A stretch of 64,000 bases of DNA from a virus: IMG/VR virus record IMGVR_UViG_3300008120_000017, positions 34,975-98,974 of that record; one strand, given 5' to 3'. A program made the translations under genes and the position numbers. Position 1 is the stretch's first letter. Each line of letters begins with the position of its first letter. Shown in pieces: positions 8,983 through 64,000 of the stretch. The notes beneath the pieces are model-generated. The model searched no databases. It was given only the letters and a program-made list of their open reading frames with translations, and was not told where the DNA came from.

Positions 8983-10614
8983 TTATTGATCTAATTGTAT
9001 AACTCTATAGGTTTGTCTACTTATCAATTCTCCGCCGCAACTTTTTGACTGCAAAACTGGACCATATTCATATCTAGCTATCCAGACATCTTTCTTGCAT
9101 CCATAAGTTCCTGTCCATACTTGATCGTCGTTAACTGTCCCACCATATATGCCGTTAGATTCACATTTTATTGTAAGGTTATTGTCTTTTAAATCAAATA
9201 CAGGAAAATTAGCAACAAAAGTTATATCTGTATAGCTACCTGGCATTATTGGTTTGATATCTCCATATTCAGAGTTTGATCCAATAACAAAACCTCCGAA
9301 AAATCCGCTAGGTAAATCAGGTGAATTATTGTAATAGTCTTTTGGCGTAGTAGTCAAAGCAGGAAGCTCCTCGATTGAAGAATATATCAAGGGTGGCTTG
9401 TCTGACTCCAGGCTAGGGTCAAATTCTAGTATAGAAAAACTTTGTGGTTCTATGCCAAATCCTCCAACAACACTCAACCTAAAGTCCACATAAATTGGAA
9501 CTGAGCAGGTGTTCTGCACACTAATTCTAAATTGATCTTCAAATACTCTCAGGTTTCTCACCCTACAAATTGGCCGTCTTTCTTTATTTATTTTATTTAC
9601 AGCGTCATTGTACAGCTCGGTGTTTGATGTAACCATTTGCACAAGTAGATCGCACACTTCTTTTAATTTTCTAGACCTTCTCTCTATTGCTGCTGTATAT
9701 GCTCTGTATTTTTCGCACCCGCAACACGGTAAACAATCACTGAGAAGCTGTACAGAATTCAATAACTTTATATCTTGTTGTTCGTCTGGTGAGTCATCAG
9801 AAAATCGTGTTTCTGGTCTCTCTATTTTTGTTAAGCATCCTACAGTATTCAACCTAAATCTACCTGTATCATCTGGGCCAACATTATTAATAAACTTAAT
9901 GTCCGTGTTTAGCGTAGAATCATTACTAGTGGTTGCTACTGGAGTAGCAGAAACAATTATTAGATTGGGGTCTACTAAATCTTTGGAGAAAACTACGTTA
10001 GGCCCAGCTTTTATTTTTTGTATAATCTCCCTGCCCCATTCATTTTCTTCTGGAATAGAGGGGGCTACATAAAAATTAGGATTACTGCTTGTTATATAGT
10101 CTGGAAGTTTTTGTATGAAAACTCTCCTAAAACCCTTGCTTCCTGGATTTATTACCGATGAATCAAGCAACGATGATTCTTTATCAAGGTTGGATAAATT
10201 CTGCAAAGCGTTATCCCAGGAAGAACCAATAGTAAACATGCATACCGCATATTTTGTAGCATATCCAGTTATCTGAGAAAATACAGGATTACTATATTTT
10301 AATGTTATTTGATCTCCTTTTCTGTTTACGCTAGTAGTTATTCCATTTTTCTGTATGCTTCTTCTTCGAGAAATTGATCCAGAAATAATTGCTATTTCTT
10401 CTGTTTGTGAATATTTAAATTCAAGAACGTATGAATCATTTTGCGAGCTATATATAACGCTAGATAAATATATAGAATTGTTTGAATAGTAGTCTGGAAA
10501 AAATTTAAGATCTACGATAAAATCCTTTGGAATTCCATTAGCTGAAATTGTTTTTTCACTGAATGGAAACGCCCTTATTGAATTTTCTTGCTGCCATTCT
10601 TGTATATTTTTCAC
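8983..10614 (-). CDS. Tail-tip/fibre family paralogue 4 (NSxRxFPF family), long form
   Basis: At 543 residues this is the longest of the five paralogues. It has the N-terminal motif QENSIRAFPF (residues 9-18) and the second motif INNVGPDDTGRFRLN in mid-protein. A CLPCCGC cluster follows, then a likely coiled coil (about residues 300-350) and an extra C-terminal beta-rich domain of roughly 190 residues absent from the shorter paralogues. The CxCCGC-plus-helix arrangement is shared with paralogue 5, so these two are the closest pair. Its start overlaps the end of paralogue 5 by ATGA. Confidence 0.73.
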   Translation of the reverse strand: MKNIQEWQQENSIRAFPFSEKTISANGIPKDFIVDLKFFPDYYSNNSIYLSSVIYSSQNDSYVLEFKYSQTEEIAIISGSISRRRSIQKNGITTSVNRKGDQITLKYSNPVFSQITGYATKYAVCMFTIGSSWDNALQNLSNLDKESSLLDSSVINPGSKGFRRVFIQKLPDYITSSNPNFYVAPSIPEENEWGREIIQKIKAGPNVVFSKDLVDPNLIIVSATPVATTSNDSTLNTDIKFINNVGPDDTGRFRLNTVGCLTKIERPETRFSDDSPDEQQDIKLLNSVQLLSDCLPCCGCEKYRAYTAAIERRSRKLKEVCDLLVQMVTSNTELYNDAVNKINKERRPICRVRNLRVFEDQFRISVQNTCSVPIYVDFRLSVVGGFGIEPQSFSILEFDPSLESDKPPLIYSSIEELPALTTTPKDYYNNSPDLPSGFFGGFVIGSNSEYGDIKPIMPGSYTDITFVANFPVFDLKDNNLTIKCESNGIYGGTVNDDQVWTGTYGCKKDVWIARYEYGPVLQSKSCGGELISRQTYRVIQLDQ

Positions 10615-11573
10615 AGATTTGCAATTAAGTTTGCAAGTAACTCACTTTGAGTTCCTTGAGTTGTTAAAACAAGTTCCCTAAGTCTTTCTTCCTGTTGTTT
10701 TAACTGTTCTAATCCTGCAGTCAAAAATTCTAGATCAACACAGCCACAGCAAGAACTTGAACATAAATCGTTAACTTTTATAGAGTTGGCATCTTTGTAC
10801 TCATCAATCCCTATGCATTCCGACTCCTCTATCCAAAAGTTTCCATTTGAGTCTGGCCTAACACCATTAATAGTTTTTATACATGGACTGTAAAAGGCTT
10901 TAGCTGTTTCACACCCGTCTGGTTCTTTTATGACGTTCTCATCTACTATTGCATCTATCTTTACGCAACCATATTGGTCGGTCTCGCCAGTATCTATATT
11001 TATTAATGGGTCGTACGTTATTCTTACGTTTTGTCCAGCTTTTATCTTTAAAACATCAGTGGCTCTATGAATTAATACATTATTTGAATCATATATATCT
11101 ATGTATTGCATAGACGGCATAGAAACAAATCTACAATTTATTTCTAGCTTAGTTGAGGAGCTATCAAAATCGAAATTACCTAGACCCCTGTTTATCGTCT
11201 CTGCTATATCACCTACCGCAATTGCTCCAAGCACTGATGAGTTTTCATTCTGACCAATAAAAGAATGGTAACTAAATTTAGAAAAATTTTTAGTATCTAT
11301 TTCTATTGTTGATATATATGTCGGAGAAATTAAAGTATCTTCAGGTTGATACGATATAGATATCTTAATAACTGGGACAGATACAAATAGACCAGATATA
11401 AAAAATACTCCATCTGCGTACGCTCTTGAATGATTGACCTGTGCAGAGACAATTAGATCGTTCGATATTGTATACGACCCGCTCTTGTCAATTCTAGAGC
11501 AGTTTTCTGCTATTGGGTAATTTCTAACAGAGTTGGAGTTTAGCCACTCAGGGAAAATTATACTTTGTGCCAC
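10611..11573 (-). CDS. Tail-tip/fibre family paralogue 5 (NSxRxFPF family)
   Basis: A 320-residue paralogue, first of the five in transcription order. The N-terminal motif is EWLNSNSVRNYPI (residues 9-21), the second motif is INGVRPDSNGNFWIE, and a CSSSCCGC cluster precedes a C-terminal helix (about 275-320) likely to form a coiled coil. The stop overlaps the start of paralogue 4. One base is shared with the preceding 767-residue gene. The role is inferred only from position and the family motifs. Confidence 0.73.
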   Translation of the reverse strand: MAQSIIFPEWLNSNSVRNYPIAENCSRIDKSGSYTISNDLIVSAQVNHSRAYADGVFFISGLFVSVPVIKISISYQPEDTLISPTYISTIEIDTKNFSKFSYHSFIGQNENSSVLGAIAVGDIAETINRGLGNFDFDSSSTKLEINCRFVSMPSMQYIDIYDSNNVLIHRATDVLKIKAGQNVRITYDPLINIDTGETDQYGCVKIDAIVDENVIKEPDGCETAKAFYSPCIKTINGVRPDSNGNFWIEESECIGIDEYKDANSIKVNDLCSSSCCGCVDLEFLTAGLEQLKQQEERLRELVLTTQGTQSELLANLIANL

Positions 11574-34825: not shown

Positions 34826-35506
34826 TTAGATTTTCTGTTCTGACAAGATTTTTTTGGCAGAGTCAGAGTAAATTAGGTTTGTAAACACAGATTTAATCCT
34901 AAGGTTTTCTGTTTTTACTCCTAATATCTCTTGATATTTTAACTCACATAAAAAATCTGTCACGAAAAACTCTTTATATTCTTCTATTTTTTGTGTTTCG
35001 GTCATCTGTGACGCTCTGAATTTCTCAAAGCAAAAAGCTTCAGATATTTGATGTCCAAACGCCGATACAAAATATTTTACTTCTGTAGCCAGTTCTAAAC
35101 TGGATAGCATATTCTCTGATATACATCTAAATCTTATTACAGATTCAACTATATTCAACATATAAGTTGTGGAATTTTGTAGATCATGTAAAGAATAATC
35201 ACCTAGTGATTGCTGTGGATATGCTATTTGCTTGATGCCAACAAGTATTGCAGGTCTTTTTCCTATAACAGATCTATTTGCGTTATGCTCTTCGCTTATC
35301 CATACATTTGATTCTGCTTGGTCTTCTTTCCATAAATACTTAGAGAAATCAGTTGATATTCTATTTTCTGTACCAAAAAACTGCTTAAGGGTGGCCACAA
35401 AAACAGATATTGCATATATAGGACTTTTTATTCTGTGTCCTGTGTGCGGCTTTATTGGATAAAGCCTAACTCCATCTGGGGAGATTAAAGTGTCGTTTGC
35501 ATCCAT
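34826..35506 (-). CDS. Putative tail terminator/neck protein
   Basis: A 226-residue protein between the connector genes and the sheath, the usual place of the tail terminator that caps the tube and sheath. The central segment GKRPAILVGIKQIAYPQQ and a helix with VESVIRFRCISENMLSS read like such proteins, with alternating helix and strand, but no definitive motif is present. The start lies two bases downstream of the 257-residue neck gene stop. The function is inferred mainly from gene order. Confidence 0.5.
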   Translation of the reverse strand: MDANDTLISPDGVRLYPIKPHTGHRIKSPIYAISVFVATLKQFFGTENRISTDFSKYLWKEDQAESNVWISEEHNANRSVIGKRPAILVGIKQIAYPQQSLGDYSLHDLQNSTTYMLNIVESVIRFRCISENMLSSLELATEVKYFVSAFGHQISEAFCFEKFRASQMTETQKIEEYKEFFVTDFLCELKYQEILGVKTENLRIKSVFTNLIYSDSAKKILSEQKI

Positions 35507-38225: not shown

Positions 38226-38300
38226 TGGCATCTCCAAGGGGATTTGAACCCCTACTATTTCCGTGAAAGGGAAAGGTGCTGACCATTACACTATGGAGAC
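38226..38300 (-). tRNA. tRNA-Glu (TTC)
   Basis: A 75-base tRNA with a complete cloverleaf. The acceptor stem GTCTCCA/TGGAGAT opens with a G-T pair. The anticodon loop is CTTTCAC, reading GAA/GAG codons. The T-arm is GGGGTTCAAATCCCC, and the CCA end is encoded. It is the third of three tandem tRNA genes on the coding strand. Confidence 0.93.
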
Positions 38301-38305
38301 GAGAA

Positions 38306-38380
38306 TGGAGCCGACAGTTGGAATCGAACCAACGACCTGCTGTTTACAAAACAGCAGCTCTACCTCTGAGCTATGTCGGC
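38306..38380 (-). tRNA. tRNA-Thr (TGT)
   Basis: A 75-base tRNA with acceptor GCCGACA/TGTCGGC, anticodon stem GCTGT/ACAGC and loop TTTGTAA, hence anticodon TGT (ACA codon). The T-arm is GTTGGTTCGATTCCAAC and CCA is encoded. Thr is the commonest Y-position residue of the collagen fibre triplets, though ACA supply there is not shown. Confidence 0.93.
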
Positions 38381-38384
38381 GTAA

Positions 38385-38459
38385 TGGTAGCGGGAGTGGG
38401 AATCGAACCCACCTAAAGAGGCTTATGAGACCCCCCAATTCCCAGAATTGTATCCCGCA
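38385..38459 (-). tRNA. tRNA-Met (CAT), initiator-like
   Basis: A 75-base tRNA with anticodon loop CTCATAA, anticodon CAT, T-arm GTGGGTTCGATTCCCAC and encoded CCA. Bases 1 and 72 are T and T, unpaired, and the D-stem holds an A11-T24 pair; both are traits of bacterial initiator tRNA. The anticodon stem has G29-C41 and G30-C40 but a T-G third pair instead of the third G-C. An Ile2 tRNA (CAT modified to lysidine) remains possible. Confidence 0.85.
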
Positions 38460-54266: not shown

Positions 54267-56123
54267 TTAATAACCAATTGTATTCTTTGGTGGTCTACCA
54301 AATTCTTTTCCATATGCTAGTGCTGGAAGTGGATTGGTACCATGAATATTAGATGTTACATCACCTCTAATTACGTTTTTCTTTAAGTTTTTTTGCACAT
54401 AAGACGTACCAAGTTGAGACATCCAATCTTTGTCATGAGAAGGATTCTCCATTAATCTGACCATATTAGGTTTAAAACTAGGTTCATGGTCGGAAACCAA
54501 AACTTGTTTCTCTTCCATCTCATTTAACTCTTTTACAACACTTGGTGTAACTCTTGTACCAATGCTATAATGTAGTACAGGCGACTCTAAAAATTTCCCG
54601 ATAGCTTTATTTGGCTCTAGATTTAATGAGTCTGGCCTTGGCACATAGCTTTTACTGAAAGAACTGTACTCGACTATATCGTCAGGTAAATAATGGCTAG
54701 ATTCATCAGCATCAGTTACCGTAACATGATCTACAACGGCTCTGGCAACCAATTCGGCATTTCTCCTGGACACGTCTATTCCGTTGTCTTTAAATGTGTC
54801 TTGTATTTGCTTTAATAAGCTCAACCTTCCTGCTCCTATACCCTTTAATCTCACTACATCAGCTGGGTTCATCAAACCACTAGATAGTCTGTCTCCTGAT
54901 TCTATTTTGTCGCCTCTTTTTACCAATATTTCATGTTCTGGAGATATATAGTGTTCTTTTCCACCTATGACAACACTTGAACCCCCCTGAGGCAATTTAT
55001 CTATACTGTCAACGACACCATCAGCTTCAGATAAAGAAGCTTTATCTGGAAACGTTTCAGGAACCTGAAACAATGCATTTATTGCTTTAAATCCAGTAAC
55101 CTTTGCTACGTTTGCTACACCAGCTGAGTGCTTAGTGGAAAGCAAACTCTGGCTAAGAGGTTCTGTTAGAGCGCTTGCTGCTGCAAGCCCAACCGCATCT
55201 GATAATCCAGGTAGTGTTCCGCGTTCTCTTACCCCACAGCATCTTGAGCATACTCCATTATGTGCTGCGCATGTCATTGGAGACCTAACTAATAATTTAC
55301 TTTTTCCACGCTTTTGTATATCCCTTATTACTTTTGTATTAAGTAAGGTTCCAGCGGGATACCCAGCAACCCCTTTAGCCAAGACAGATCCAACGTTGTC
55401 TTTATCCTCAATTGAAACGGGAATACCTGAAGAGGACTTACAGTCATCTTCAGTTACCAATAAGTCCATTGCGGCTGCATTGATTTGTTTTGCTAGGAAT
55501 CCAGAGTTTTGTGTAGAAAATTTTGTAGCTATCAATCCAGCCCTGGTTCCATAACTCGCTGCAAAATATTCAGCTGGATTCATTCCCTGTGTATATGAGC
55601 TTTTTATTCCTATAGGGACTGGAGTATTTGTTTGGTCCATCACCAAGAAGTCTGCACCTATATTACTATTTAATTGGCTTTTATTTCCTCTGGCTCCTGA
55701 TGCAACCATTTTTGCTAGATTTGACCCCTTCTTTAGGGATGCATCAAATATCATGTCAGGCATCTTTGAAGAATACCTATTATAAAGTTTTACAAGTTTT
55801 TCTTCTTTTTGTTCTTGAGTCAAAGTTTCGTCGGAAAAAATATTATTTTCTTCCGTCGAAACTTGATCCATCAAAGTTTTTTTATCTATTGGGGACTCAA
55901 GATCTTTCATAGAAAAAGAGCTGCCTGTTTCGACAGCCCCTTTTGATCCAAGTCTTAGTAGCTTAAAAGATATATCTTTATATTTTTCTGGGTCAGTCTC
56001 CGCTATTCTTTGTAATACATCTTTGACTTCTTTGCTCCCTATGGGCCTGTCGTTTGGAATATCATTCCTTACTCCCTCTGGGACAATTGAATTAAAAATT
56101 AATCTAGCTACTGTAGTAGTCAT
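54267..56123 (-). CDS. RNA polymerase beta-prime, C-terminal half
   Basis: 618 residues, equivalent to roughly E. coli beta-prime from 615 on. Seen: ASGARGNKSQLNSNIG (141-156), the bridge-helix motif YGTRAGLIATKFSTQNSGFL (191-210), four zinc-binding cysteines (C228, C285, C292, C295), and a trigger loop with EPLSQSLLSTKHSAGVA (321-337), whose AGV end is nearer archaeal/eukaryotic enzymes than bacterial IGG. Clamp and C-terminal pieces follow (GRLSLLKQIQDTFKDNGID). The polymerase active centre is completed only together with the beta/beta-prime fusion protein. It lies 3.3 kb downstream of that gene in transcription direction. Confidence 0.93.
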   Translation of the reverse strand: MTTTVARLIFNSIVPEGVRNDIPNDRPIGSKEVKDVLQRIAETDPEKYKDISFKLLRLGSKGAVETGSSFSMKDLESPIDKKTLMDQVSTEENNIFSDETLTQEQKEEKLVKLYNRYSSKMPDMIFDASLKKGSNLAKMVASGARGNKSQLNSNIGADFLVMDQTNTPVPIGIKSSYTQGMNPAEYFAASYGTRAGLIATKFSTQNSGFLAKQINAAAMDLLVTEDDCKSSSGIPVSIEDKDNVGSVLAKGVAGYPAGTLLNTKVIRDIQKRGKSKLLVRSPMTCAAHNGVCSRCCGVRERGTLPGLSDAVGLAAASALTEPLSQSLLSTKHSAGVANVAKVTGFKAINALFQVPETFPDKASLSEADGVVDSIDKLPQGGSSVVIGGKEHYISPEHEILVKRGDKIESGDRLSSGLMNPADVVRLKGIGAGRLSLLKQIQDTFKDNGIDVSRRNAELVARAVVDHVTVTDADESSHYLPDDIVEYSSFSKSYVPRPDSLNLEPNKAIGKFLESPVLHYSIGTRVTPSVVKELNEMEEKQVLVSDHEPSFKPNMVRLMENPSHDKDWMSQLGTSYVQKNLKKNVIRGDVTSNIHGTNPLPALAYGKEFGRPPKNTIGY

Positions 56124-56132
56124 TTAAAATAA

Positions 56133-57434
56133 CTATACCCTATGATAATAGATACACTCAAGTCCCTTATTTTTGTCATACAAAAAAGCCTGGGCACATC
56201 TATTAGAGGTAACATATCCAGAATTGCTATGCCATGCGTCAGGTGGAGATAGACTAGGTATAACTCTTGCTATTACCCCTCCTTCCTCTATTGAGGACTC
56301 TCTGTGCAAATGTCCAAGGTGCCACTCACAATAAACGGTCTTACCCCATAACTCTCTTTGCTCTACTTGTGCTATTCTAGTGAGTTGGTTTAATTTTATT
56401 TTATCTCCATGAGTAAAACAAAGTAATGTATTTCCTACTGCGTGGTATTTTCTTGCTGTGGCAGCGTTATCTATGGACACAGTCTTAAACCCCTTAAAGA
56501 AGGCTCCAAGGAATTCTCCCAAATAAAAGGTCCTTTCTATGTCATGATTACCAGGAACTATAATAACCTTTACAGGAGCAACTGAATTACATTGATTGAT
56601 AGCCCACGTGGATAATTCGCAACCCCTCCTAAATGATTTTTGCCATCTACTGTCTTCGTTCTGAGGAGTTCCATTTCCAGTAGTATTTTCTTTATTGTTT
56701 ACATTAAAAAAATCATTACCTATTGGAAGAATTATCTCTGATATTTTCTCATTCTTAACTTTGTCTAAAAAGTCCAACAAAGCTGATTTGAATCTTACAA
56801 TGGCTTCACCTGAGTTATAATTACTGTGCCCAGTTTCTTCTTCCCAGGCTAATTTACCTAAGTGTAAATCTGGGATAGAAATCTCAAAAACCTTTCCACC
56901 TGAAATATTGTGTTTCTTTGTTGAAGTTATAGAGCTTTTTATACCAGAGATGCAGCTATTAAAAATGTCTGAAATTTTTTCTTGAGTTAGCTGGTTTCTC
57001 TTTAGTTGGGCCTTAACTTGATACAAGTTTTTGGTTATAACATCGCCGTCTTTTGATTTCATTCCAACTGGCCATGTGTTTGCAGTCCATCGTTCAATTT
57101 GCCACTTTTTAAGATCTATGTTACACGCGCCAATCAAATCTTCTAATGTTTTAATATCTTCAGTGACTGATTCAGCCTCCATCTCATTTTCGTTGCCTAC
57201 ACACCTAGTCTTATTTTGTTTTTTGTCTACAGGCAACACCTCTTTAGCGTACTCAAGTGAATCCGTAAATTTATCAAATAGATTAGATGATGGTCTAAGT
57301 GCATGCTCCACCGAGCTAAAGCTGCGCATTAATTTTTTTGCGATCTGGTCGTATGTCAGACCATTGTTTTTATAGTCACAAGCTTTCTGAAATTCGTTTT
57401 TTGTCCAAGACGTGTTGTTTTTTTTATTTGTCAT
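56133..57434 (-). CDS. Metallophosphoesterase with DNA-binding-like N-terminus
   Basis: A 433-residue protein. Residues 8-46 (SWTKNEFQKACDYKNNGLTY, then IAKKLMRSFSSVEHAL) form a helix-turn-helix/SANT-like domain. A helical linker follows. The calcineurin-type phosphoesterase has all metal motifs: DLHLGK (Asp189, His191), GND (239-241), GNHD (295-298), His342 in THGD and GHLH (374-377). Such enzymes act on nucleic acids or phosphoproteins. It sits between the beta-prime C-terminal gene and structural genes, ten bases after its neighbour, so it may be expressed with the polymerase. The substrate is unknown; a nuclease or RNA end-processing role is likely. Confidence 0.85.
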   Translation of the reverse strand: MTNKKNNTSWTKNEFQKACDYKNNGLTYDQIAKKLMRSFSSVEHALRPSSNLFDKFTDSLEYAKEVLPVDKKQNKTRCVGNENEMEAESVTEDIKTLEDLIGACNIDLKKWQIERWTANTWPVGMKSKDGDVITKNLYQVKAQLKRNQLTQEKISDIFNSCISGIKSSITSTKKHNISGGKVFEISIPDLHLGKLAWEEETGHSNYNSGEAIVRFKSALLDFLDKVKNEKISEIILPIGNDFFNVNNKENTTGNGTPQNEDSRWQKSFRRGCELSTWAINQCNSVAPVKVIIVPGNHDIERTFYLGEFLGAFFKGFKTVSIDNAATARKYHAVGNTLLCFTHGDKIKLNQLTRIAQVEQRELWGKTVYCEWHLGHLHRESSIEEGGVIARVIPSLSPPDAWHSNSGYVTSNRCAQAFLYDKNKGLECIYYHRV

Positions 57435-57438
57435 TTTA

Positions 57439-57660
57439 TTACTCTGTTATTTTTATTCCCAGATTTTTCGCTACTTGATCAAAGTCTTCTTGATCGTCTC
57501 TTGAGATAATCATTACAGGACTAGGTGGCATTAACAATATTAATGCAACAAGGGTATTTGTGTTATCCCTTATTTCTATTGTCTTGACACTTTTTGTGTC
57601 TAGCAGCGGTTCTTCTAAAGGGTTATTTTTAGCAATAACTCTTAAGGAATAATCTGGCAT
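57439..57660 (-). CDS. Small hypothetical protein
   Basis: A 73-residue alpha/beta protein: a strand-helix-strand pattern (YSLRVIAKN, SVKTIEIRDNTNTLVALILL, then PPSPVMIISRDDQEDFDQVAK). No motif is recognised. It lies between the phosphoesterase and a Gln-rich gene, with 4 and 6 bases to spare. Confidence 0.5.
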   Translation of the reverse strand: MPDYSLRVIAKNNPLEEPLLDTKSVKTIEIRDNTNTLVALILLMPPSPVMIISRDDQEDFDQVAKNLGIKITE

Positions 57661-57666
57661 TTTTTT

Positions 57667-58131
57667 TTATTGTGCTGGTTGGCCCTCAGGAGCAGCTTGA
57701 GCCTGTTGATCGGCTGGAGGAGCTTGCGGCTCCTGCTGGGCTGCGGCCTGTTGTTGCTGTGGGTCTGCACCAGTTATTTGTGCCATCATTTGCTCTATTT
57801 GGTCAAGTCTTTCTTGAACACTTTTTTTCTTTTCTCCCTTTCCTCCCATTTTCATTGCTTGCAGCTCCATACCGATTTGCTGAACAATCTGCATTGTTTG
57901 CTGCTGCATTTGTGCCAACTGCTCTAGTCCACCTTGGACTAATTGTGCAAGCTCTGGGAAACCTATCTGTGGCTGAGCATCAGTTCCTGGGGCTGGTGGA
58001 GGCGGTGGAGCAATCGAACCATCCTGCTGAGCTTGCGCTATTGCTTGTTGAGTCTGAGGAGAAGAGACAAAAGCTTTTTTATCTATCTTATTTAATATTT
58101 CGTTCAGTAACTCAGTATTGAAATTTAACAT
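57667..58131 (-). CDS. Gln/Ala/Pro-rich putative internal virion protein
   Basis: A 154-residue low-complexity protein. The N-terminal LLNEILNKIDKKAFVSS resembles the tag of the internal proteins. A helical middle (ELAQLVQGGLEQLAQMQQQT, then QIGMELQAMKMGGKGEKKK) and a Gln/Ala/Pro tail follow. There is a typical AAGGAAC upstream of the start. Similar Gln-rich proteins occur among phage internal or scaffold-like proteins, with no specific function known to me. Confidence 0.5.
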   Translation of the reverse strand: MLNFNTELLNEILNKIDKKAFVSSPQTQQAIAQAQQDGSIAPPPPPAPGTDAQPQIGFPELAQLVQGGLEQLAQMQQQTMQIVQQIGMELQAMKMGGKGEKKKSVQERLDQIEQMMAQITGADPQQQQAAAQQEPQAPPADQQAQAAPEGQPAQ

Positions 58132-58142
58132 ATGTTTGTTCC

Positions 58143-58760
58143 TTATCTAAAAAGTAATCTACAGGTCATAAACTCCCCAGGGGATGTATTAGCTACAGAT
58201 ATCACCTTAAGTCTTATTTGATCCTGTGGGAAAAATTCTTTCTCTTTAGTGAAAATTTCGTAATAAAATAATTTACCATCTTCTATGATGGTTTCATTAA
58301 TCATTGAATTGGTGCTCTCTTCTTTTAGCTGTATAACAGTGGAGTCACCAACTGGACTCATAAAAAAACTTACCTGCATGCCATAGCAAATCAAAGATTG
58401 TGTACCAGGTACATCAAAATAGCCAAACGTCTTTCCAGCAAAAAGCGTTCCTGGAAAATAAAAATCAACAAACCCTGGGGCTGCAGCCGAACCAGACGTA
58501 GTGCCTGGCCCAGCACTTAATGTTACCAAAGAGTTAATAGGTCTCCATACCACATTTCCATTTAAGTCTAGTGTTGGAACCCAACCCTCAGTAGCTAAAG
58601 AAGATGGTTGGCTTATGAACTCTTTCCAGTTTTTACCACCATCTTTTGTGTACTGGATAGATAAAGAGCCAGAAGAAGCGTCTCTATAAAATCTAGTTTT
58701 TTGGCTGTCAACCAGTGGATTTGGAATAAAATGTTGGTCTCCTAAAATTGGATCTGGCAT
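58143..58760 (-). CDS. Putative virion surface or fibre protein
   Basis: A 205-residue, beta-rich protein. The N-terminal ~60 residues have the pattern of repeats that display on fibres (RDASSGSLSIQYTKDGGKNW), followed by a glycine-rich TLSAGPGTTSGSAAAPG hinge and a C-terminal jelly-roll-like domain ending EFMTCRLLF. No enzyme motif. It could be a head fibre or a decoration protein. Confidence 0.5.
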   Translation of the reverse strand: MPDPILGDQHFIPNPLVDSQKTRFYRDASSGSLSIQYTKDGGKNWKEFISQPSSLATEGWVPTLDLNGNVVWRPINSLVTLSAGPGTTSGSAAAPGFVDFYFPGTLFAGKTFGYFDVPGTQSLICYGMQVSFFMSPVGDSTVIQLKEESTNSMINETIIEDGKLFYYEIFTKEKEFFPQDQIRLKVISVANTSPGEFMTCRLLFR

Positions 58761-58763
58761 ACA

Positions 58764-59387
58764 TTAAATATTAAATAATTTTTTAATCAAACCCTTTGGT
58801 TTTTCTTCTTGTTGGCTTGACTCTTCTTTTTCCTCTTCTGGTAGGTCTACTACCCCAACGTTCAAGTCAGTATCTTGATTTGGCCTTTTTCTTAAGCTTG
58901 TACTAACCCTAATAGATTTTCCTTCACCGACCCTTTTAGCTGCTCTACTCATATTCAATATCATTGGAATTAATGCAGCTGTACCAACTACTCCTGCACC
59001 ACCCAAAATTGTTTTCTCTGTGGGAGACAGTTTATCTAAAAATGGCTTTCTTATGTATTCTTGAGTTTTTGCAATTTCGTCTTGGGATTTCTGTAACCCA
59101 TGCAATGCAGGAATCGCAGCTAGTGCGACGTCTTTTGTCGGAGCAAGTAAAACGGTCCCAAGGCCTTTGGTGACTTCACCTTTGTTTATTAAGTTTCCCC
59201 CAAGAGCACCAGTGAGCAAATTAACTAATCCGAGTCCAACTCTACTTGGGGTGACGTCCCCATAATTGTCTTTATTTTGTAGGTAGTCTAATCCACCAGC
59301 AGTTATGCCACCAGTAACTAATGGAGCTAACAAGCTTTTAGCTATAGAAGCCTCTTTTCCGAATAATACTGAAGGAACCTCATTCAT
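58764..59387 (-). CDS. Putative internal virion protein
   Basis: 207 residues from MNEVPSVLFGKEASIAK; a longer reading to 59411 would overlap the polymerase gene by 17 bases. Glycine-rich hydrophobic segments (LLAPLVTGGITAGGLDYL; GLGLVNLLTGALGGN; GAGVVGTAALIPMIL) alternate with charged ones, and the tail is acidic then Lys-rich. It follows the beta/beta-prime gene by seven bases. The character matches the other putative packaged membrane-active proteins, but it lacks the M-N-K-Y start. Confidence 0.55.
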   Translation of the reverse strand: MNEVPSVLFGKEASIAKSLLAPLVTGGITAGGLDYLQNKDNYGDVTPSRVGLGLVNLLTGALGGNLINKGEVTKGLGTVLLAPTKDVALAAIPALHGLQKSQDEIAKTQEYIRKPFLDKLSPTEKTILGGAGVVGTAALIPMILNMSRAAKRVGEGKSIRVSTSLRKRPNQDTDLNVGVVDLPEEEKEESSQQEEKPKGLIKKLFNI

Positions 59388-59394
59388 TTTAATA

Positions 59395-62300
59395 TTATGC
59401 ACTAATTTCAACTGGTGTGTCGATTGATATTTCTCCTCTTCTGTACGCAGCTATAACATCCGAAGCATCTTTAAATTTTACTGAAGGTTTATTTTTGTCT
59501 ATATTTGTAGTATTGTAAAGACCTAAAACAAACTCCTGTGAAGGAGTGTAAAATATCTTTTTGTCTTTGATAGATAGTAGATTCTTTGACGGCATCAATT
59601 TTTTCTTTGCCTCATCAACGGCGTCATCAGATACTGGCACATGGACATTCATTTGGTCTCCGTCAAAATCCAGGTTAAACCCCTTAACGATTAATGGACT
59701 CACCTGAATCGAATCACCAGTCACAAGCCTTGGTGTTGCAGCCATTATATTAAATCTATGCAATGCTGGAGCTCTATTGTAGAGTACTGGTCTTTCTGAC
59801 ATTTCGTCTAGCAAGAATTTTTTAGCGTAATCACTCTTTCTTTCTACGTTCAATGCAGCCTGAGTCGATGGCATACCATTTTTAACCATTCTACGCATAA
59901 CGAATGGAGCATATAATTTCCATGCCATTTTTGCTGGAACCCCTATACTGTCCATATCTAAATCATCACTAGGTATGGTTACCCCTCTTCCAACAGTATT
60001 TACAGTATGTCCAATAACTTTTGACAAAAACATACCAGTCTTTGGTCCACCTGATCCAGCCAGTGACTTTATAAAACCTTTTATTCCCTTTTGCTGTAGT
60101 TTAGGATGAAGAGGATCACCAAGGCCCATTACAGCGGTTAACGCATCATATACCGCAAGCCTCTCCTCTCCTGCTTCTGCATCGCCAAATGTGTCTTTTG
60201 ATTCTCTATGTAAATCCCTAGCGGTCATTAAGTCTTTATATAAATAATTAGAATCAGCACTTAACATCATTTTACCGGCCATTGACACTGGTCTATAGCT
60301 AGGAGGTAAAACAGGAACCCTTGTCATAAAGAAATCATCTTTATCCAATCCTTGCTTCCTGATTCCAGATAGAATATTTAATTTTTTTACTGCATCATTT
60401 CTAGATGTCTTTGATCCATTTCTTATTGCAGACCTTAGGTCTTCATCCATTCTATTAAAATCAATTGATTGATATGCATCAATTAACGCCTGTGGGCCGG
60501 TTTTCCCGTTGATCATCTCCTTACCGGATAGAACATCCCTCATCTTGTTTTCAGTTAATCCCAGGATTTTTCTAAGAGGCTCCTCTAGTATTGGGTTCGG
60601 CGTAGGCTCGTCCAATGAAATGAAGCTCCAGTTTCTTCCATCTATACCGTGCAATGACTGATCCATTAATCCACCTTTTACTGGTTCTCCAGTTCTAGGG
60701 TCTATTGTATCTGAGTTATTTAATTCCCTGTCTCCGACTAATGAGTCTATATCGCTTCTTCTTAGTGCTTTTATTGTTATATTGGATCCCTTTTTATCTG
60801 GATTAATACCAGCTGCTTTTAGGGTGTTTGTAAATTTTTCATAAATAAAAGGAGTCTTTGGTGCAGGAAGTGACATGCCCATTTTTATAGATCTCCACAT
60901 ATCCACGTTTGCACCCGTCCTATAATTCTGAATATCGAATAAATTTTTAACAGCACCATGAGAAAGTAATGCCATTGTATCTAGCATACCTATTCTTTTT
61001 GCGCTTTCTGATCCACCTGGTTTGCCTGGTTGTTCGTTTAGATCTGGATTACCCTCATCTATCGCGCTAAGCTTTGCGTCTGCTGTATGCTCTAGTTTTA
61101 GAAAATTTTGTATACCAGTAAGAACTTTTGGTATTACTTTATTTGTTTCTGGGTCCAGTAAGTCTTCTGTATCTGAGACCTGATTAAGGTCTAATTCATT
61201 TTTTACGAAGTCGTGAAACGAGTCAGAAGAAAAGGATGGAAGTGTATATCTTTTTCCAGTCTTTGTGGCGACTTTTCCTAACAATGCTTCATATACCATT
61301 CCTGGGTTAACTCTTCCAATCATGGCAGCTGGATTAATCAATATGTCCACTGTGTTTCCGTCTTTATCTTTAAACATTTTATCATCAGGAATTATTCGAC
61401 CAATAACTCCCTTAGCAGCAAATCTAGATGATATTTTATCACCAGGCTTTGCTGGAAAATTTGCTGATATGTTTACAGACAAACCTCTTCTTGTTTCTAT
61501 GGCATCTATAACGTTACCATTTACGTTTTTTTCCCATGTTTGGCTTTTATCTATAAAAGATTTTTTGAGAATTTTATGGAGATTGCCTTTAGCTCTGTCT
61601 TCTGCCCTTAGAATCCTAGGAGCAACAGATAAAAATACTGGATCACCAGGATTTATTTCTGCACCTGATTTAATCATTCCATTGTCGTCTATCTTGCTTA
61701 GCTGTTCCTTTGTGTATTTATTTGGGAACAATTGTATAAATTTATTTTTACTGGAAACTACTCCGTCCTTATTCTCTACATCAAATCCATATAAATGCGA
61801 TGACGTAAGTTTAGATGCAGCGCCCTCACTAATTGTAATAGAGTCCTCAAACGTACCACCCTGTTTTCCTGGCATAAAAGCTACCCTAAGATTCTTGCCT
61901 ATAGATAGTTCTCCGTCTTTATTTACATAATTTGAATGAGCTAATGCTTGTCCGGTTTTGACTTGATCACCTGGCTTAACTAATGGAGTGTCTGTAGTAA
62001 ATGTTTTTCTGTTGTGTGGATAAAAATATCTTAACTCCATGTCCACATCTTTTTTGTCTAACCCAGTTATTGTTATTCTATCGTTTGTTATTTTTTTAAC
62101 TACCCCGTCAGTTGGGGACGCGACAACTCCTATTTTAGACCCTATGGTCTTTTCTAATGGTTGTTCATTGTCTTCGTCTAATGACATTACAAGAGGTGGC
62201 TCTGGTTGTGCCATCGGTAAAGCTTGCGTAAAATACTTGCCAGCCATAAATGCTCTAGCCCCTTTCATTGTACTAAACATTGGGGCTAGATTAATAGAGT

Positions 62301-62487
62301 CTGTATACACGTGCGAAGGGGACAATATTTTGTATTCCACTTCGTCTGGGGTAGCATAAGTTAACTTACCCTTTTTCATTGCTGGAACTGGGTAAGACGA
62401 TTTTGATCCGTTAGGATCTATTACTTGTGGTAACGCATTCTTCTGGACAAAGTCTGGAAAAAGCTCTGAAAACAAATCTTTTTTCAT
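59395..62487 (-). CDS. RNA polymerase fused beta C-terminal half / beta-prime N-terminal half
   Basis: 1030 residues. Residues ~45-562 match the C-terminal half of beta (from E. coli ~650): DEVEYKILSPS, IGKNLRVAFMPGKQGGTFED (196-215), GDKISSRFAAKGVIGR (349-364) with the catalytic-region Lys359 kept and the second Lys replaced by Arg, and the beta clamp GGSESAKRIGMLDTMALL. From ~600 it becomes beta-prime N-terminal half: EPLRKILGLTENKM, VPVLPPSYRPV, RPVLYNRAPALHRFNI, then NLDFDGDQM with the catalytic Asp triad in DFDGD (940-944), and it ends at E. coli ~545. The beta-prime N-terminal zinc ribbon is not visible. The first half of beta is absent. It pairs with 54267..56123 to complete beta-prime. 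Confidence 0.92.
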   Translation of the reverse strand: MKKDLFSELFPDFVQKNALPQVIDPNGSKSSYPVPAMKKGKLTYATPDEVEYKILSPSHVYTDSINLAPMFSTMKGARAFMAGKYFTQALPMAQPEPPLVMSLDEDNEQPLEKTIGSKIGVVASPTDGVVKKITNDRITITGLDKKDVDMELRYFYPHNRKTFTTDTPLVKPGDQVKTGQALAHSNYVNKDGELSIGKNLRVAFMPGKQGGTFEDSITISEGAASKLTSSHLYGFDVENKDGVVSSKNKFIQLFPNKYTKEQLSKIDDNGMIKSGAEINPGDPVFLSVAPRILRAEDRAKGNLHKILKKSFIDKSQTWEKNVNGNVIDAIETRRGLSVNISANFPAKPGDKISSRFAAKGVIGRIIPDDKMFKDKDGNTVDILINPAAMIGRVNPGMVYEALLGKVATKTGKRYTLPSFSSDSFHDFVKNELDLNQVSDTEDLLDPETNKVIPKVLTGIQNFLKLEHTADAKLSAIDEGNPDLNEQPGKPGGSESAKRIGMLDTMALLSHGAVKNLFDIQNYRTGANVDMWRSIKMGMSLPAPKTPFIYEKFTNTLKAAGINPDKKGSNITIKALRRSDIDSLVGDRELNNSDTIDPRTGEPVKGGLMDQSLHGIDGRNWSFISLDEPTPNPILEEPLRKILGLTENKMRDVLSGKEMINGKTGPQALIDAYQSIDFNRMDEDLRSAIRNGSKTSRNDAVKKLNILSGIRKQGLDKDDFFMTRVPVLPPSYRPVSMAGKMMLSADSNYLYKDLMTARDLHRESKDTFGDAEAGEERLAVYDALTAVMGLGDPLHPKLQQKGIKGFIKSLAGSGGPKTGMFLSKVIGHTVNTVGRGVTIPSDDLDMDSIGVPAKMAWKLYAPFVMRRMVKNGMPSTQAALNVERKSDYAKKFLLDEMSERPVLYNRAPALHRFNIMAATPRLVTGDSIQVSPLIVKGFNLDFDGDQMNVHVPVSDDAVDEAKKKLMPSKNLLSIKDKKIFYTPSQEFVLGLYNTTNIDKNKPSVKFKDASDVIAAYRRGEISIDTPVEISA

Positions 62488-62490
62488 GTA

Positions 62491-63096
62491 TTAATAAATT
62501 AAATATCTACGTATAAACATATTTACGTAATTCAATCCTCTTTCGGTCTTATATATCAAGTAACTTATATATCTCCAAAAATGTTTCCAGCCAACTTTAT
62601 TTAGCAACCTCTTAAATCTATTTATTAGTTTATTTTCTTTTTCCTTTTGCTCTTTCATTAGCCTATCAAAGCTAATTGAATGTTTTTCGGTTGTTTTTAC
62701 CTCAACTAATAAAATCTTATCTAATTTTCCGTAAATAAAGTATGCATCAAAATCCATCCAGGTTTCCTCTGTGTCGGATGAGTCTATGCTACTATAAAAT
62801 GTTATTTTACCGTGATAGTCTATTTTCTTTGTGTATCTATCTTTCTCTATTACTTCTTTCCAAATATTCCACGGTCTAACTTCTTTACTTTTTCTCTCTT
62901 CCTCAGAGAATGGTATGTATTCTCTTTCTACTATCTCTTCTACTAGATCTCCAGTTTCTGTTATGAAGTATTGACTCAAACAATTATCTAGGTCTTTTGT
63001 TTGAAAATTTATTTCACTCCAATTAATTGAATGTTTCTTTAATTCGTCATTAAGTGGTAATTCTACACTGACTTTAATTTCATCGAACATTCCCAT
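62491..63096 (-). CDS. Hypothetical protein of the MGMFDE phage family
   Basis: A 201-residue protein starting MGMFDEIKVSVELPLNDELK, followed by FQTKDLDNCLSQYFIT at about 51-66, a combination seen in small phage proteins of unknown function. The C-terminus is basic and Tyr/Phe-rich. It ends four bases before the start of the beta/beta-prime gene, so it may be co-transcribed with it. No motif points to a function. Confidence 0.6.
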   Translation of the reverse strand: MGMFDEIKVSVELPLNDELKKHSINWSEINFQTKDLDNCLSQYFITETGDLVEEIVEREYIPFSEEERKSKEVRPWNIWKEVIEKDRYTKKIDYHGKITFYSSIDSSDTEETWMDFDAYFIYGKLDKILLVEVKTTEKHSISFDRLMKEQKEKENKLINRFKRLLNKVGWKHFWRYISYLIYKTERGLNYVNMFIRRYLIY

Positions 63097-63101
63097 ATGT
63101 A

Positions 63102-64000
63102 TTAAGTTATATTTGCTGTGTTTATTGAATTATTGGAAACATTCTTAAATGCATCTGGATTCCTAATTATAGCGTCTATTATTGTTTTTTTAGGAACTTT
63201 GTTTCTCAGAGAATTTAAGTATGGATCTGGATTTTGCTGAGCTTTTCTTGCTACAGTTCTTGCAAGGAACCCAGGAACGCCTGGTATTTTCCAATCGTGT
63301 TTTATAGCGTTATTAAAGAATTGGTCAACGTTTAAATTTTTAGACAAAATTCTTTTGTATAATCCCTCTGGTGTTTCATTTGGAATACTGGTCTGGAGCT
63401 GTGGCAACTGAACGTTAGATTTTTTCTGGAACGGTTGTCCAACTGGCTGAAATTGATTTGCCTGTTGAGGTATTTGCTTTATAGGAACAGATACATTAGA
63501 TGGAATACCTGGTCCAGTGGATGTAGCGCTAGATGTATAAGTTGGTGTATAATTTTGATTTATCTGTCCAGGATTACGCGCAGCTTCGTCCATGGAGTTT
63601 TGGACATTAAGCTTACCTAGCTCCCCTAACATTTGTCCTGTACCTGCTATGGTCTTAATAGGGTTAGCAAATCCATGCCAAGCTCTACCCACAACACCTT
63701 TATTTGCAACTTGTTGAGTTTCTGCTAAATTTTTTGCAGGATCCATTGCGACATCTACCCCTTGCAACGCCATATTTCCAGCCCATGCAAATGGTGCCGC
63801 TTTAGACGCAAATCCCAATGCTTTACCAGCCACTCCAGCTGCGTTAGATGATTGAGTCATCGCTCCAATTGAGTTATTCATTCTAGGAGCAACCTTTGAC
63901 AAGTGATGACGTCCTTCGTGCAACAAACTGCTGGCTCCCGTACCGCCTTCAGCAACACTAAATGCTTGATGTAGTCCATGCCCGTGTCCAGTGTTTGCTA
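63102..64000 (-). CDS. Putative internal virion protein, 5' end outside the window
   Basis: The frame stays open to the last base of the window, so the N-terminus is not visible; the readable part is nearly 300 residues. Segments include EGRHHLSKVAPRMNN, glycine- and alanine-rich KALGFASKAAPFAWAGN, a Gln/Pro/Thr/Ser-rich linker and a C-terminal helical domain with LYKRILSKNLNVDQFFNNA. It has the look of an internal or ejected protein or peptidase-linked protein. The HEGRHH could be metal-binding, but the context is too short to say. Confidence 0.55.
   Translation of the reverse strand, partial: ANTGHGHGLHQAFSVAEGGTGASSLLHEGRHHLSKVAPRMNNSIGAMTQSSNAAGVAGKALGFASKAAPFAWAGNMALQGVDVAMDPAKNLAETQQVANKGVVGRAWHGFANPIKTIAGTGQMLGELGKLNVQNSMDEAARNPGQINQNYTPTYTSSATSTGPGIPSNVSVPIKQIPQQANQFQPVGQPFQKKSNVQLPQLQTSIPNETPEGLYKRILSKNLNVDQFFNNAIKHDWKIPGVPGFLARTVARKAQQNPDPYLNSLRNKVPKKTIIDAIIRNPDAFKNVSNNSINTANIT

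Follow-up and report, generated by a model that had tools for sequence, protein, structure and literature searches.

How a bacteriophage comes to encode a bacterial-type RNA polymerase (RNAP) whose two largest subunits are joined at one point and broken at two others, and in what order the join and the breaks were made, is the question raised by a pair of genes in IMG/VR record IMGVR_UViG_3300008120_000017. The genes lie on the minus strand of a 64,000-nucleotide stretch of that record (positions 34,975 to 98,974; hereafter the window, whose coordinates are used unless stated otherwise), which belongs to a tailed phage as judged by recognizable tail sheath and head proteins. One gene (59395..62487, ATG start) encodes a 1030-residue protein combining the C-terminal half of beta with the N-terminal half of beta', and the other (54267..56123, ATG start) a 618-residue protein corresponding to the C-terminal half of beta', with its bridge helix, trigger loop and jaw side; 3.27 kb and five open reading frames (ORFs) separate the two. 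Most likely, the phage makes a two-barrel RNAP with three large subunits, and these genes specify two of them; polymerase activity would be expected from the sequence. The origin of multi-piece phage RNAPs is debated, with intron loss, a cyanobacterial source, and fragments predating the last universal common ancestor all having been proposed (PMC7598289, PMC7824862). For the lineage described here, it is very probable that beta and beta' were first fused and that fission followed, of beta' and then of beta, to yield a three-piece enzyme.

The identity of the two proteins rests on several concordant lines of evidence. Pfam models place Rpb2_6 at residues 126-482 (4e-39), Rpb1_1 at 690-757, and Rpb1_2 at 826-962 (1.4e-24) of the 1030-residue protein, and Rpb1_5 (5e-25) in the 618-residue protein. 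Sequence searches of the PDB pair residues 30-425 of the former with beta about 591-976 and residues 636-1029 with bacterial beta' about 142-540, while the latter corresponds to E. coli beta' from 572 onward. A segment-specific hidden Markov model (HMM) and alignment delimit the beta portion to residues 34-501 (60985..62388; E. coli beta about 634-1272), and the PDB search and alignment assign residues about 575-1030 (59398..60765) to E. coli beta' about 7-569. Alignment and sequence reading show the C-terminus of beta leading into beta' without a long linker; the N-terminal zinc-binding domain of beta' is missing, as it is from the aligned phage relatives. The joint alignment locates one break at E. 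coli beta' about 550-570 and the other within beta, in the interval from E. coli residue 620 to residue 634.

The sequence and structural features by which a two-barrel multisubunit RNAP is recognized are present: both double-psi barrels, the DxDxD triad, and the paired lysines in the 1030-residue protein, and the bridge helix and trigger loop in the 618-residue protein. The active-site lysines K351 and K359 (61411..61437) align with E. coli beta K1065 and K1073, and the catalytic Mg2+-binding motif DFDGD occupies residues 940-944 (59656..59670) in the context NLDFDGD; both lysines and D940, D942, and D944 show no variation across 44 relatives. In the 618-residue protein, the bridge helix (residues 183-218 of the model; 55470..55577) is seen both as an AlphaFold2 helix and in alignment with bacterial beta', and the trigger-loop region (55065..55193) carries H332, the counterpart of E. 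coli beta' H936 in the alignment; together with K331 it forms a K-H pair that is invariant among the relatives. Cysteines C228, C285, C292, and C295/C296 stand at the position of the second zinc site by sequence reading and alignment. AlphaFold2 modeled the larger protein with a pLDDT of 87 and a pTM of 0.76, and the smaller with a pLDDT of 84; Foldseek matched the former to bacterial beta (prob 1.00) and the latter to bacterial beta', and among the best Foldseek matches no single PDB chain covered both halves of the 1030-residue protein. These findings bear out much of an earlier note on this DNA, which had described a beta C-half joined to a DFDGD-bearing beta' N-half, a separate beta' C-half beyond five other genes, and a beta' break just past the DFDGD domain, and had proposed structural comparison as a check; both models are confident and resemble the expected bacterial subunits.

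To place this arrangement among its relatives, four segment models (beta-N, beta-C, beta'-N, and beta'-C) were applied to all loci (designated L with a number), with relatives counted as distinct beta-C sequences, about 140 in total. Three states emerged. In 49 complete cases beta and beta' form a single chain, mostly of 2.0-2.2 thousand residues (the longest, 3591). Another 66 loci are two-piece: beta'C (median 626 residues) has a gene of its own, 0 to 6.5 kb from that for beta-beta'N (median 1482 residues). At a further 17 only the large beta-beta'N gene was seen. The three-piece state is represented by six records: the window, L002, L011, L106, L103+L107, and L004, the last with its beta'C unseen. 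Two contigs (IMG/VR 3300023174_000414 and 3300030044_000016; loci L002 and L103/L107) carry all three genes, the separate beta N-half included, and carry them in one direction. The six share two identical break points despite sequence identities of 47-80%. Cultured two-piece members exist in Salmonella phage Arash (gp206, gp216) and Vibrio phage D69, which makes the system experimentally testable; D148 and D181 resemble D69 by match positions. At L010 the stop and start of the two beta' genes directly abut. Several of the single-chain relatives have uninterrupted sequence, with neither gap nor loss, across the position of the beta' break.

The survey also modifies the earlier note in two respects. 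The two halves are indeed one chain, but they were not newly stitched together, as the join is the older feature, common to nearly the whole phage lineage, and both breaks came later. Nor is the arrangement unique to this phage: it occurs in at least six records, and the beta'-C break is found in about 80 others.

Four further candidates for the three-piece state were rejected: L094 (a frameshift beside an intein), L132 (an in-frame TGA), L190 (an ORF start inside a domain, next to an intein), and L160 (two in-frame TGA codons, one at a Trp column). The L160 record (IMGVR_UViG_3300000172_000001) carries its TGA codons at 9659-9661 and 11471-11473 in an otherwise single-chain RNAP; judging from the second, which falls on a Trp position of the relatives, TGA is probably decoded as Trp in this phage.

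Where, then, is the N-terminal half of beta? The earlier note had placed it elsewhere, and a search of the 98,974-bp contig with the N-halves of relatives, the segment HMMs, and a whole-record protein search recovered none, in line with that expectation; nor was a second Rpb2_6 gene, or an unsplit beta or beta' gene, found on this contig. The same type of query does recover beta-N in relatives, and within the three-piece clade it is a separate gene. The contig terminates at window base 64000, about 1.5 kb upstream of the 1030-residue gene, so beta-N may sit just outside. The two genes that fill this interval are a 298+-residue gene truncated by the contig end (63102..63998, minus strand) and a 201-residue gene directly upstream of the fusion gene (62491..63096, minus strand). 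Homologues of the former sit between the beta-N and fusion genes in L002, L011, and L102. The 88.6-kb contig of L102 has a beta-N gene and, some 3.7 kb beyond it, counterparts of both (52% and 90% identity, the 201-residue gene being the 90% match to the last gene of that contig), at which point the contig stops. From this gene order and contig end, the L102 and window contigs are complementary, and the distance from beta-N to the fusion gene downstream of it should be about 5 kb. We predict a beta-N protein of about 480-490 residues for the window phage, encoded just past the end of the contig.

The survival of one-, two-, and three-piece relatives makes the order of events readable. Two trees were built under LG+G4 without a mixture model, the first (82 rows, 1885 columns) rooted on three bacterial RNAPs and the second (80 rows) leaving out the poorly filled rows of Yersinia phage GN1 and Cobetia phage Carin-5. 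In both, the single-chain forms constitute a grade, the split forms a single clade (Shimodaira-Hasegawa-like approximate likelihood ratio test, SH-aLRT, 99), and nested in that clade the three-piece forms group together with a support of 100. Mapping four states on the tree required three changes, the minimum, against a mean of 32 when states were shuffled. All phage rows lie on one side of a branch with support 100, in a comparison confined to three bacteria. The ancestor would accordingly have been a phage RNAP with beta and beta' in a single polypeptide of about 2050 residues. Cutting of beta' behind its DFDGD barrel domain would first have produced beta-beta'N and beta'C, and a second cut, confined to the clade of the window and located after the N-terminal lobe region of beta, the present beta-N, beta-C-beta'-N, and beta'-C.

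Several points weigh against this fusion-first order or leave it incomplete. A single clade of all single-chain forms passes the approximately unbiased (AU) test at the 5% level (p 0.08), so that their paraphyly is favored, not proven; even if they did form one clade, fusion first would be cheaper in events than a route by re-fusion. The outgroup comprises only three bacteria and the substitution model is simple. The GN1/YerA41-like sequences and Carin-5 (L112 and L113) fall within the phage clade near its base, on a long, poorly filled branch, and this placement, if real, would call for a re-separation or a second fusion. In L112 and L113 themselves, beta and beta' are separate and unsplit, and in Carin-5 a sigma factor gene adjoins them. 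The window phage's own beta-N was not seen. Finally, a Sigma70 region 2 occurs in just 2 of 20 related records, which leaves promoter recognition unexplained for most members; the Sigma70_r2 domain is absent from the window's own contig, as from most relatives, and sigma factors are annotated in Arash and D69.

Assembly of the three chains can be envisioned by analogy. They most likely come together as a core without alpha and omega, much as the non-virion RNAP (nvRNAP) of jumbo phages is an active enzyme with split subunits and no alpha or omega (PMC7598289, PMC7618050). The 1030-residue chain holds the two catalytic barrels in cis, along with the active-site residues that bind metal and RNA, so that the active site would form on one polypeptide, with beta'C contributing the bridge helix and trigger loop and beta-N the lobes. 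The templates of the enzyme are most likely genes of the phage itself, chiefly late ones. The RNAP genes adjoin head and tail genes, which suggests either late expression or packaging. If packaged, the enzyme would enter the cell with the DNA and transcribe early genes, as a virion RNAP (vRNAP) does, and this variant of the fusion-first reading is a serious possibility, though not the one we favor. The structural block beside the RNAP genes, with a 735-residue neighbor similar to an Arash protein annotated as structural and, farther along, matches to a head protease and major head proteins, speaks for it, as do the phage hallmark genes reported around the RNAP genes of the multi-subunit RNAP-encoding Caudovirales compared below (PMC7481178), but position in a late block is equally compatible with late expression.

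A different history would run in the opposite direction, from separate ancestral pieces, either of phiKZ type or like archaeal B''/B'/A'/A'', through stepwise fusion of neighbors to the single chain as the last product. An archaeal-like gene order would permit fusion of B' with A', and the AU result leaves some room for such a route. Split phage RNAPs have moreover been proposed as ancestral (Iyer et al. 2021, PMC7824862). This history is nevertheless improbable here, as under bacterial rooting the three-piece forms nest within two-piece forms and these within single-chain forms, the outgroup has whole beta and beta', and the bare abutment of stop and start at the beta' break in L010 looks like a simple cut.

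Could a split intein or trans-splicing reunite the translated pieces, so that the working enzyme is a single chain again? Inteins are common in these RNAP genes, Pfam detecting them in L007, L073, L076, and L107. However, no intein or Hint domain is present in the window proteins or in the beta-N of L002, the termini of beta'N and beta'C are seamless without Hint remnants, and the intein sites lie elsewhere than the breaks, all of which makes rejoining very improbable. Intein-driven fission was rejected on the same non-coincidence of intein sites and breaks. Among the inteins in the RNAP genes of L107 (1300-6312, 9995-12355), L007, L073, and L076, one directly follows the DFDGD motif and another interrupts the trigger loop, the positions at which RNAP is best conserved.

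Least credible of all is an artifact of sequencing or assembly, or a pseudogene in decay: the contig is metagenomic and spurious extra breaks do occur (the frameshift of L094, the in-frame TGA of L132), but both break points recur in the six divergent three-piece records, the catalytic residues are retained, start and stop codons are clean, and no in-frame beta' remnant was found past the 1030-residue stop or ahead of the 618-residue start. Independent assemblies concur and the contig has no unsplit beta or beta' gene, which excludes, within the reach of the data, the refuting cases named in the earlier note.

With fusion followed by two fissions as the preferred history, the system can be set beside known ones. 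Cyanobacterial rpoC1/rpoC2 has a beta' break nearby, about 20-65 residues further on, but beta is whole there and unfused to gamma. In Helicobacter-type rpoBC, beta and beta' are one polypeptide as in the single-chain phage relatives, but no later fission took place and the enzyme is a cellular one with alpha and omega. The phiKZ/AR9-type nvRNAP and vRNAP are alike in that beta and beta' are each cut into two or more pieces, with a beta' break after the DFDGD barrel roughly <=40 residues from that of the window (PMC7598289); all of their pieces are separate, whereas beta-C and beta'-N here form one chain, and the window sequence is far nearer to bacterial RNAP than to the phiKZ families. The K2ORF6p/K2ORF7p enzyme of yeast killer plasmids (virus-like elements, VLEs) resembles the two-piece phages in fusing beta to most of beta', with a small separate beta'C, but it is of poxvirus-like eukaryotic origin, its beta N-half is not separate, and its authors likened its beta' break to the archaeal one rather than to a post-barrel position (PMC6211774). 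Its plan of whole beta fused to beta'-N is found in the two-piece relatives and not in the three-piece clade. In overall plan, the yeast enzyme comes nearest to the two-piece state, and phiKZ RNAP is the nearest match for where the cuts fall. The single-subunit RNAPs crAss-like gp66, P23-45, and YonO are also phage enzymes with both barrels in one chain, but they are placed in the other clade of two-barrel RNAPs, which is highly divergent (PMC10770324).

Closest in lineage are the multi-subunit RNAP-encoding Caudovirales (mReC; Weinheimer & Aylward 2020, PMC7481178), which share bacterial-like, apparently deep-branching beta/beta' RNAPs, an origin in IMG/VR tailed phages, and adjacent structural genes. 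As in mReC, cellular models recognize beta/beta' homologues in the tailed phage studied here. The main text of that study makes no mention of a beta-beta' fusion, two fissions, or inteins, and its screen used NADxDGD, a motif that differs from the NLDFDGD of the window, L002, L011, and L106, so this subgroup would have escaped it; L004 and many relatives have NADFDGD. The PF07068 capsid and PF03237 terminase families gave no Pfam match at E<=0.001 to the candidate head protein and the 571-residue terminase-like protein, and they occur in only a minority of mReC contigs (PMC7481178). The enzyme falls among the apparently deep-branching phage multisubunit RNAPs and is most likely an mReC one, though formal membership is not claimed in view of the differing motif and the lack of capsid and terminase matches. 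No earlier account of the fused and split arrangement was found in the literature, in a search that took in neither subscription journals nor supplements. The arrangement is a variant within a known phage RNAP lineage, not a new kind of enzyme.

Its value lies in one lineage retaining the one-, two-, and three-chain steps in living members, so that their order can be read directly. A beta' break near the cyanobacterial and phiKZ ones can evidently arise anew among single-chain enzymes; having arisen within a single-chain lineage, a matching break position need not mean common origin and is weakened as evidence of it. It is enticing, if rather unlikely, to suppose that the phiKZ-type enzymes too were cut from a single-chain ancestor, instead of descending from ancestral fragments or by cyanobacterial inheritance; fusion followed by stepwise fission would then be a general route for phage RNAPs, and the common position of the beta' break, behind the barrel, would mark a structurally permissive site that was used repeatedly. 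The lineage is also a natural test of how far RNAP tolerates being cut, with the 1030-residue central piece keeping both catalytic barrels in cis.

The five intervening ORFs are likewise on the minus strand. A 215-residue gene of no known function (58764..59411), whose TTG start overlaps the 3' end of the 1030-residue gene, keeps its location in L002/L011/L106/L107; a 205-residue gene of no known function (58143..58760) and a Q/P-rich 154-residue gene (57667..58131) are also conserved in location. They are followed by a 73-residue ORF of no known function (57439..57660) and a 433-residue gene for a phage exonuclease/metallophosphatase (phrog_704; 56133..57434).

Other observations concern inserts and the wider genome. 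The 789-residue beta-N of L004 (4149-6518) carries an inorganic pyrophosphatase domain (PF18823, E 2.6e-49) inserted in the lobe, which could remove pyrophosphate derived from transcription; the same lobe site holds 2H phosphoesterase-like inserts in L073 and L085 and inserts without an assigned identity in L044 and L067. Three tandem tRNA genes (Glu, Thr, Met) lie inside the structural block of the window (38226-38459). On the same phage contig, L015 (9593-11224) encodes a 543-residue reverse-transcriptase-like protein with the motif YADDLSFT, and L016 (16055-19000), in the contig region that leads into the window at its first base, has collagen-like proteins of great length built from Gly-X-Y repeats.
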